From Sutcliffiella horikoshii (lineage in GTDB: Bacteria; Bacillota; Bacilli; Bacillales; Bacillaceae_I), in the NCBI RefSeq assembly GCF_019931755.1, contig NZ_CP082918.1, forward strand, positions 3,638,001 to 3,702,000: a stretch of 64,000 nucleotides of DNA. The letters are read 5' to 3'. The position numbers and the translations under genes are program-made. How positions within the stretch are numbered: the first letter of the stretch is position 1; each line of letters opens with the position of its first letter. Below the pieces are notes generated by a model. That model saw only the letters and a list, made by a program, of their open reading frames with translations. It had not been told where the DNA came from and made no database searches. Positions 42,118 to 44,095 of this stretch are shown here, piece after piece.

Positions 42118-42528
42118 ATGAAGGATTGGGAGGCGGCATATATCGCTGGTATTATTGATGGAGAAGGTAGTATTTTATTAACAAGAATTCACAAAAATGA
42201 ATTTAGACGTCCTTGTATCACCATAGCTTCTACAGATATAGAATTACTAGAATTTGTCCAGAGTATAATCGGTGGTGCAATTGTAAGGAAAAAGAATTAC
42301 AAGCCTACTATCCACAAGAATTCATTTTCACTAAATGTAAAATCAAAACGAGATGTTCTAAACACGTTGAAATGTATTTGTCCATATCTAAGAGTAGAAA
42401 TAAAAAAGCGTAGAGCTATTTATATTTTGGATAACTATGAATTAGTTACAAAAAGAAATGGGAAATATAAGCTAGAAGAGCAGATAAATAAGATTAAATT
42501 TGAAGAGGAATTTTTTAACCTTAAATAA
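42118..42528 (+). CDS. Free-standing LAGLIDADG homing endonuclease
   Basis: 136 aa, one LAGLIDADG motif (AAYIAGIIDGEGSILL, residues 6-21; acidic Asp and Glu present), so it would work as a homodimer. A domain with KSKRDVLNTLKCICPYL and a basic C-terminus follow. SD GTGGAG precedes the ATG. It is not inside the tmRNA intron: it lies 265 bp beyond the tmRNA 3' end on the opposite strand, separated by a terminator and palindromic element copy 4. A target at the intron insertion site of ssrA is the obvious hypothesis (inference). Confidence 0.87.
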   Translation: MKDWEAAYIAGIIDGEGSILLTRIHKNEFRRPCITIASTDIELLEFVQSIIGGAIVRKKNYKPTIHKNSFSLNVKSKRDVLNTLKCICPYLRVEIKKRRAIYILDNYELVTKRNGKYKLEEQINKIKFEEEFFNLK

Positions 42529-42597
42529 GAAAATAGGCGACATGAAGTACCTAATGGAGTTAAATATTTCGTCCTTCTATTGTCGAATGGAACAACC

Positions 42598-42724
42598 TTG
42601 TTGATTGTAGTGGAAGGCGCGTAGACTCCCGCGGGAGGAAGGGACAGGTAAGACCCCGCAACGGAGTGAGGAGGCTTACGGACCGCCCGCAGGAAAGCGA
42701 AGCGCCTGGAACGAAAATCAACTG
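42598..42724. repeat. Palindromic intergenic element, copy 4 (inverted)
   Basis: Reverse-oriented copy: GGCGCGTAGACTCC, AAGACCCCGCAACGGAGTGAGGAGGC and GGAAAGCGAAGCGCC blocks. Its ends, TTGATT and AATCAA, are inverted. It lies between the endonuclease gene and the tmRNA terminator. Confidence 0.8.
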
Positions 42725-42751
42725 AATCTCTTATTTTTAATTAAACAAACA

Positions 42752-42782
42752 AAAGACCACACCAGTGAACAGTGTGGTCTTC
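42752..42782 (-). terminator. Terminator of ssrA
   Basis: AAGACCACAC (42753-42762) pairs with GTGTGGTCTT (42772-42781) around a 9-nt loop; the minus strand continues TTGTTTGTTT. It lies 12 bp after the tmRNA 3' end. Confidence 0.88.
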
Positions 42783-42793
42783 TTACATTAAAA

Positions 42794-43438
42794 TGGAGAC
42801 GGTGGGACGTGCAATTCCATGCTTTCGTCATGGCACTGACTATATCTTGAACCTCAAGGCTGAGGTCCTCTGGCGTATTATGCGAACTAAAATTTTTAGT
42901 TGCTACTGCAACTAGCAGTTCCGCATCCTAGTATTACCACTAATGTGGCAACCTATGAGTCGATACACGGCTGTTGGATTGCTCCACATACCGCTCGGCA
43001 TTGCCTTATCGTAAAAGAACTACGACTTAGGTTTCACCGATAAAGCCAGATTTTCACTTGTATGTTGCCATACAAGGCGACTAATAATTAATCGAACCCA
43101 CGTCCAGAAACATCGCCACTTAAGCATCTACGAGTGTAGTCAATATATTAGTATTTCGCTGACCCTTCCGCCTATTGACTGGCATCCTGGCAGCTAGTCT
43201 GGTTGTGCTCTTCCTTTGACCTCAGACGGCGATCTCCGGCGTAGCCCACTTAGAGTGAGTCCCTGATCCTACCACATGGGCGATGGAGGGAGGAACCGCT
43301 ATAGTCTGTTATTAAGCAGCTAAAGCGAAGTTGTTGTTTTCTTTGCCAGTTATATTGGCGTTGACGTTGATGACGAGGACGATCCCCCCGACTCGCAACC
43401 CAAGCTCGAACTATCCCTGTCGAATCCGTAACGTCCCC
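42794..43438 (-). ncRNA. ssrA: tmRNA (ssrA), interrupted by a group I intron in the T-loop
   Basis: The 5' end GGGGACGTTACGGATTCGAC (from 43438) and the 3' acceptor strand GTCTCC plus discriminator A (42794-42800) pair as in tmRNA; CCA is not encoded. The tag reading frame (43312-43347) gives GKENNNFALAA followed by two TAA codons. The T-arm GTGGG-TTCGATT-CCCAC is split after TTCGAT, and 283 nt are inserted. Without the insert the RNA is 362 nt, the normal Bacillus size. It rescues stalled ribosomes with SmpB, whose gene lies directly upstream on the same strand. Confidence 0.95.
42808..43090 (-). mobile_element. Group I self-splicing intron in the tmRNA T-loop
   Basis: The 5' exon ends in U (UUCGAU) and the intron ends in G, as in all group I introns. 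P1 can form between CGAU-UAA and UUAGUCG with the required U-G pair at the splice site. P2 is a perfect hairpin with GCAA loop (CTTGTATG/CATACAAG). The S strand of P7 is the canonical AAGATATAGTC (42838-42848) and a matching GACT lies upstream (ATCGACTCATAGG). A P9 hairpin (CCATG/CATGG) precedes the 3' splice site. The intron carries no ORF. Removing it restores a perfect 7-nt T-loop. Confidence 0.93.
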
Positions 43439-43627: not shown

Positions 43628-44095
43628 CTATTCCTTTTGACGTTCACGGAACGCTCTCTCAATATCGCGTTTCGCTTCTTTCTTTTTCAAGTCATCACGC
43701 TTGTCGTATTTCTTTTTCCCTTTACCCAGACCGATTAACAGCTTTGCATAGCCATTTTTCAGATAGATTTTCAAAGGTACTAATGCATACCCTTCTTCTT
43801 TTGTAAGACCTATCAGCTGATTGATCTGTTTCTTATGAAGAAGCAGCTTGCGTGTACGAAGCGGATCATGATTGTATCGGTTTCCTTGCTCATACGGACT
43901 GATGTGCAGGTTGTGCAAAAACACTTCACCGTTTTGCACTCGTGCAAAGGAATCCTTCAAGTTGACGCGACCTGCTCGCATGGATTTGATTTCCGTACCT
44001 TGTAGCACCATACCCGTTTCATATGTCTGTTCGATAAAATAATCGTGGTTGGCTTTTTTGTTGGTACTGATAACCTTTCCTGTCCCCTTCGGCAT
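43628..44095 (-). CDS. smpB: SsrA-binding protein SmpB
   Basis: 155 aa. [69 protein letters not shown] and the basic tail [22 protein letters not shown] are diagnostic. SmpB binds the tRNA-like domain of tmRNA and brings it to stalled ribosomes; its binding surface includes the T-arm region that the intron interrupts before splicing. It lies downstream of rnr and upstream of ssrA. Confidence 0.98.

Follow-up and report, generated by a model that had tools for sequence, protein, structure and literature searches.

Organization of the ssrA locus

The window analysed here is a 64,000-nt stretch of the Sutcliffiella horikoshii genome (assembly GCF_019931755.1, contig NZ_CP082918.1, positions 3,638,001 to 3,702,000). 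Its ssrA gene, which encodes transfer-messenger RNA (tmRNA), is interrupted by a group I intron, and an open reading frame (ORF) for a LAGLIDADG endonuclease lies just beyond the 3′ end of ssrA; we consider the two as probable partners in collaborative homing. As shown in Table 1, the ORF is convergent with ssrA, which including the intron spans 43438..42794 on the minus strand. The T-loop is interrupted between its bases 6 and 7 (TTCGAT^T), and joining of the exons restores the 7-base loop. The Rfam tmRNA model matched ssrA with 150.7 bits. ARAGORN reported no tmRNA on the whole window or on the unspliced stretch, whereas the joined exons were recognised as one tmRNA of 362 nt carrying the tag given in Table 1. 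These results bear out a first-pass annotation made from the sequence alone, which had placed a 283-nt group I intron in the tmRNA T-loop with the same boundaries and had stated that its excision restores a 362-nt tmRNA; the adjacent endonuclease gene was overlooked there.

No ORF of at least 60 amino acids overlaps the intron. A search of the genome with RF00023 found a single ssrA, the 22 further matches being short, below the cut-off and read by us as tRNAs. A second intact ssrA, which would make splicing dispensable, was rejected, as none was found in the genome. Because only one ssrA was found and the adjoining SmpB looks intact, it is fair to infer that the host depends on splicing. The CCA end of the tmRNA (at 42794) is not encoded in the window or in its five same-family rows of the intron alignment; it is encoded in the 17 other rows.

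Table 1. Features at the ssrA locus of S. horikoshii (window coordinates).
Feature	Coordinates	Strand	Description	Basis
LAGLIDADG endonuclease ORF	42118..42528	plus	136 aa (amino acids), free-standing, single motif, E16, K96, TxRNGKY motif	
Dispersed repeat copy	42596..42728		widens the endonuclease-ssrA gap in S. horikoshii	
Inverted repeat AAGACCACAC/GTGTGGTCTT	42753..42781		between endonuclease gene and ssrA	read by eye
ssrA 3′ exon	42794..42807	minus	14 nt, comprising the final T-loop base, the 3′ strands of T-stem and acceptor, and the discriminator A	
Group I intron in ssrA	42808..43090	minus	283 nt, P7.1/P7.2 present	Rfam, alignment, structure count
P7 3′ strand (catalytic core), AAGATATAGTC	42838..42848	minus	invariant in 23 rows	
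P2 hairpin	43057..43076	minus	GCAA loop, 8 pairs, 100% paired in 23 rows	
ssrA 5′ exon	43091..43438	minus	348 nt, tag GKENNNFALAA	Rfam, ARAGORN
smpB	43628..44095	minus	upstream of ssrA	

Fold and covariation of the intron

Twenty-three intron homologues were aligned together with flanking sequence, 16 nt of exon to the left and 18 nt to the right, and a structure comprising P1 to P9 with P7.1 and P7.2, in which P3 and P7 cross, was drawn on the window sequence. Standard pairs were present in 95.1% of cells across the 23 relatives. Changes on both sides occurred in 31 of the 82 pairs, against a shuffle mean of 16.9, and this number was reached by none of 500 shuffles. When the structure was slid by 1–3 columns, only 4–9 pairs showed such changes, although this control is tilted in favour of a structure that was drawn on the window sequence. 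On a weaker measure, which counts further pair types, 19 of 500 shuffles attained the observed value. The tip helix of P7.2 is unsupported (paired in 43.7% of cells), while P3 and P7 are paired in 100% of cells; P7 is invariant and hence contributes no covariation. The conserved core from P3 to P8, with P7 crossing P3, was recovered both by the full-length model match and by the pairing. Taken across the 23 relatives, the covariation supports a group I fold, and P7.1 and P7.2 lead us to assume an IA-like subgroup for the window intron.

Of the annotated features, the P2 hairpin with its GCAA loop, the 5′ splice-site U-G pair and the intron's terminal G were all present, the last two in 23 of 23 rows. 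A covariance model had been proposed as the check on the intron, with the absence of a hit above threshold as grounds for refutation. Rfam Intron_gpI gave a full-length match (model positions 1–253) with an E-value of 4.6e-9, which is far from chance; taken literally, the threshold is narrowly missed, as the score of 43.3 bits is under the gathering score of 50, an automatic cut-off rather than a property of the biology. Introns that Rfam found in the ssrA genes of relatives scored in a similar range, from 35.6 to 48.3 bits.

The endonuclease gene

The protein matched Pfam LAGLIDADG_3 with 25.5 bits (cut-off 22.5) and LAGLIDADG_1 with 24.4 bits (cut-off 23.1). E16 and K96 were invariant in 28 aligned rows; E16, which is acidic and lies in the LAGLIDADG motif, and K96 stand at positions that we take, from I-CreI, to be catalytic. 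I-CreI and I-MsoI, both intron-encoded homodimeric LAGLIDADG endonucleases, have the same fold over residues 1–136 (124 aligned, root-mean-square deviation 2.1–2.4) and likewise a single motif. They share 16–25% identity with the window protein, which is shorter and free-standing. The structural matches also include the bI3 maturase and 1p8k, a bifunctional endonuclease and splicing factor. An open ORF was present in 74 of the 80 loci of the second collection described below, and over 40 pairs of these at 72% identity or more, with synonymous divergence (dS) of 0–1.5, the median ratio of nonsynonymous to synonymous divergence (dN/dS) was 0.12, which points to purifying selection on the family.

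The inverted repeat between the two genes is likely a shared bidirectional terminator. The dispersed repeat of about 130 bp beside it has 40 near full-length copies in the genome and 57 matches overall; an element resembling it interrupts the endonuclease gene of one relative (G014, L018/L021).

Distribution of the intron and the endonuclease gene

Genome searches scored a limited number of first-look candidates, so that the absences given here are not absolute. In the wider sets the intron was followed with R1, a 57-position model of the intron 3′ end and 3′ exon built on Bacillaceae. Within the family, 8 of 18 genomes had an endonuclease match, and all eight carried an ssrA intron; the match in G012 is a 27-residue fragment and that in G014 is split over two contigs. 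Among 16 genomes of the genus, nine carry the intron and seven a perfect intronless T-arm. The endonuclease was found in 7/9 of the former versus 0/7 of the latter (p ~0.003, uncorrected for ancestry).

Across 397 genomes of the order, 55 contained the endonuclease or a remnant of it, 89 matched R1 and 48 had both. In 39 of these 48 the endonuclease gene lies at most 2 kb downstream of ssrA, with a median gap of 81 bp, and all 39 are convergent. As for the other nine, five endonuclease genes keep the side and strand at a distance of 6–43 kb, three occur on a different contig (that of G046 being a weak match), and the one in G157 is unlinked and contains stops. Downstream of the displaced genes, repeated motifs resembling transposon ends were seen by eye in several genomes.

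In a second collection, which overlaps the first in part and comprises the best 80 of 173 loci, 67 endonuclease genes stand beside an intron-bearing ssrA: 65 by script, L159 by R1 (E 1e-9), and L151 by reading of the interrupted T-arm and core, where R1 gave only E 0.048. One (L155) lies beside an intronless ssrA, and 12 have no ssrA in the flank examined; of these 12 genomes, 11 have an intron-bearing ssrA according to R1. Transfer RNA genes were considered as the reason for the copies away from ssrA and rejected, since ARAGORN found none in 12 of 13 loci and the thirteenth hit was the tmRNA of L155. A single ORF carrying both motifs was present in 71 of the 80 loci, 70 of them in intron-bearing genomes; the exception, L157, is from a Clostridium metagenome-assembled genome without a match to R1, a model built on another group. 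Of 398 genomes of the phylum, 11 had an endonuclease match; besides the window, three are full-length (L355–L357), and each of these adjoins an ssrA that has an interrupted T-arm and is matched by R1.

Where chromosomal ssrA genes lack the intron, broken endonuclease copies were found: L155 has lost the LAGLIDADG motif, L166 contains stops, and L358 and L359 contain stops and are truncated. In the intronless Sutcliffiella relatives G005, G008 and G016, only a ribosome-binding site and the first few codons are left, as read by eye. Such copies would be expected if an active enzyme were tolerated only with an intron-split target. Intronless sister species (L169–L175) have two T-loop types, TTCGATT in three and TTCGACT in four, within T-arms of the types GTGGGTTCGATTCCCAC and GAGGGTTCGACTCCCTC. 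Some TTCGATT alleles may be former intron carriers, because the intron-bearing relatives read all have T at that base. No relatives of the endonuclease were found on plasmids in PLSDB at E 1e-3.

The pairwise distances of intron and endonuclease were correlated (r 0.61). In a partial Mantel test on 43 of 66 sequences (65 loci and the window), those in which the script found SmpB and an open endonuclease ORF, the partial r with SmpB distance held was 0.45 and was reached by 0 of 2000 permutations. The correlation fits joint movement as well as common descent of two closely linked elements.

Relatives in phages

Phage and bacterial members of the family were used to scan viral sequences, and the best 80 of 414 relatives were analysed. 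The motif script covered 79 of these loci (L215 was left out), and 22 of the 79 bear the TxRNGKY motif, 19 of them at a tmRNA gene. Rfam places a tmRNA at the gene or next to it in 18 of the 20 strongest motif-bearing loci (L264–L283), the matches in L269 and L277 being below the gathering score. For the two motif-bearing loci outside these 20, L297 and L300, ARAGORN, the sole scan of those two, found no tRNA or tmRNA.

We classified the 20 by context. In four (L264, L265, L268, L269) the gene lies, as judged by eye, inside a tmRNA intron in antisense. Past the gene, R1 detected the 3′ end of the intron in L265 (E 3.7e-6) and L268 (E 2.2e-6) and weakly in L269 (E 0.0036). In L267, L273, L278, L281 and L282 the gene occupies the spacer of a permuted tmRNA, the split of the tmRNA around it in L267 being read by eye; in L266, L270, L271, L274, L276 and L283 it abuts a permuted tmRNA; and in L272, L279 and L280 it is downstream of a standard tmRNA. 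L275 has the gene directly after tRNA-Ser, and L277 has a weak tmRNA. In the Sphingobium phage Lacusarx, a family gene annotated as an HNH endonuclease overlaps the annotated ssrA. A distant relative with 30% identity, likewise annotated as HNH, overlaps tRNA-Ser within a tRNA cluster of Gordonia phage WilliamBoone (L263, 2480–2977).

Relatives lacking the motif served as control. ARAGORN found no tRNA or tmRNA in the flanks of any of the 57 motif-lacking loci. This program is a poor control for phage loci, naming a tmRNA in 6 of the 20 strongest motif-bearing ones, and the control was therefore redone with Rfam models on whole records, covering 50 of the 57 (L336–L342 were left out). None of the 50 had a tmRNA near the gene, and none a permuted tmRNA; in one (L308) a standard tmRNA scored above the cut-off, at a distance of about 22 kb from the gene.

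A midpoint-rooted tree of 40 sequences unites the 19 chromosomal genes in a single clade (support 0.997) and shows intron and spacer contexts interleaved among the phages. Together with the contexts at phage tmRNA genes, the tree suggests that what the endonuclease family tracks is the tmRNA gene, not the intron. The family in the spacers of permuted tmRNAs suggests homing at tmRNA genes independent of an intron. We lean towards the view that the TxRNGKY proteins are a distinct LAGLIDADG family dedicated to tmRNA genes in bacteria and phages, which would use any harmless non-coding shelter there, whether a T-loop intron, the spacer of a permuted gene or the 3′ flank. In Bacillaceae and Clostridia the gene would lie outside the intron as part of a two-part selfish system, with the intron as cargo and immunity.

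Collaborative homing at ssrA

A free-standing endonuclease gene beside an intron without an ORF is the arrangement of collaborative homing, and the occurrence of relatives of the gene at such RNA genes in many bacteria and phages suggests two selfish elements that spread together. We put at about 0.7 the probability that the intron and the endonuclease gene form a collaborative homing pair, widespread at the tmRNA gene of bacterial chromosomes. The intron would self-splice to give mature tmRNA. The endonuclease would act as a homodimer like I-CreI, bind the T-arm of an intronless ssrA and cut at or near the T-loop, close to the loop centre. The T-stem would make this target an imperfect palindrome, with palindromic half-sites as a hypothesis. 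Repair from the intron-bearing chromosome would then copy the intron in, and co-conversion of the 3′ flank would carry the endonuclease gene along. In the carrier, the intron would separate the two half-sites and so protect the chromosome from its own enzyme.

We know of no collaborative homing outside phages. The described case is F-CphI with the psbA intron of cyanophage S-PM2, in which the gene for a free-standing endonuclease adjoins a group I intron; self-cleavage is blocked by the intron, which the enzyme is able to spread (PMC6083498, PMC3984707). The same logic is proposed here for ssrA. The two systems differ in that the phage pair sits in a protein-coding gene and uses an Endo VII-type enzyme, while the window has a chromosomal tmRNA gene and an I-CreI-like LAGLIDADG protein; moreover, cleavage by F-CphI has been demonstrated (PMC6083498, PMC3984707) and that by the window enzyme is predicted here from sequence.

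Several observations weigh against this reading. The Fisher value for the association of intron and endonuclease in the order is 1.5e-29, and it is not corrected for shared ancestry. Because the sampled chromosomal genes form one clade, part of the chromosomal linkage is presumably inherited. The intron appears to persist without the endonuclease, because 41 of the 89 intron-bearing genomes of the order show no match. Conversely, seven of the 397 genomes have an endonuclease match and no intron: four of these matches are fragments or weak, and G130, G274 and G333 carry a divergent subfamily, which was not counted as the same family as it is without the RNGKY motif. One such divergent relative (L163 in G274) is intact and lies about 0.7 kb from an intronless ssrA. 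Apparently intact endonuclease genes also adjoin the uninterrupted phage tmRNAs of L272, L279 and L280, so that an intron would not be the sole way to live with the endonuclease. Rfam Intron_gpI reported nothing at E 0.01 in L151, L159 or any of the four phage introns, and R1 gave no support for the intron in L264. Finally, an 18-nt copy of the tmRNA 3′ end, starting in the T-loop, flanks the endonuclease gene of L280, and this was the only such duplication in the 20 phage loci; direct duplication as a general scar of insertion was rejected.

Three other explanations were weighed. The intron could be an ordinary, vertically inherited tmRNA intron and the endonuclease gene a relic of past homing that is decaying and no longer has a role. 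Relatives G009, G012 and G015 indeed hold degraded copies, and the intron carriers G004 and G006 show no match; set against the ORF with both motifs in most loci of the second collection and the low dN/dS, these make decay an unlikely account of the family. It is also quite unlikely that the gene is an unrelated passenger at ssrA 3′ ends that serve as insertion hot spots. Such insertion does occur at the gene, a known island site according to the accessible text of a recent survey (PMC11915505), and in G313 (L160, 3487–7867) a helicase gene, best matched by the PDC-M23B and HamB defence models, and an unmatched neighbour separate ssrA from the endonuclease gene. A passenger would nevertheless hardly keep one orientation in 39 of 39 genomes with so short a gap, nor would its motif-bearing phage relatives sit at tmRNA genes, some within introns or permuted-gene spacers, when those lacking the motif do not. 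Least likely of all, and very improbable, is a maturase that aids splicing and is not, or is no longer, an endonuclease: some LAGLIDADG proteins are maturases, two structural matches have such a role and purifying selection is strong, but many intron carriers show no copy, six intron-bearing loci hold a copy that fails the two-motif test, and the family is also found at tmRNA genes without an intron.

Collaborative homing at ssrA, if true, would be a chromosomal and widely conserved case. The system is open to assay, since the enzyme is small, its T-arm target is short, and there are sister species that have the intron and others that lack it.

Relation to published tmRNA introns

Group I introns in the tmRNA T-loop were reportedly described by Williams in 2002. 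The first-pass annotation had called them rare and confined to a few bacteria. That view is out of date: 89 of the 397 genomes of the order carry one, and the 2025 survey by Nawrocki, Petrov and Williams counts 883 intron-form sequences among 97,179 tmRNAs, predominantly from Bacillota and spanning 21 phyla, all in the T-loop and mostly at position 7 (PMC11915505, as far as its accessible text goes). The window intron is an ordinary member of this kind, being alike in gene, T-loop site, U at −1, terminal G and the mostly Bacillota hosts; its subsite corresponds to position 7 by our reading of the figure-legend numbering, and its 283 nt compare with an average of 293 bp in the founding set (PMC11915505). 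According to the same text, 36 of the 883 introns (4.1%) contain a homing endonuclease gene, as against 54% of archaeal rRNA introns, and the gene lies in P7.1 or after P9 in the 23 founding cases (PMC11915505). The accessible part of the survey discusses endonuclease genes within the intron and names no partner outside, which is where the partner in the window lies (PMC11915505). Given how seldom tmRNA introns carry endonuclease genes, a partner located immediately beyond the gene would account in part for their spread.

A literature search, judged by titles and the starts of abstracts and with subscription papers mostly outside its coverage, found no paper on a linkage of tmRNA intron and endonuclease. 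The available part of a marine phage paper that deals with a tmRNA mentions no homing endonuclease (PMC9004378). What appears to be new is the endonuclease linked to the intron, the constancy of its location and the family, bound to tmRNA genes, to which it belongs.

Outside the window, three more group I introns above the Rfam cut-off lie within 2 kb of one another in the same genome (G000:C1:3798212-3800093, L009–L011); by eye they adjoin a flagellin-like ORF and may interrupt flagellin genes.
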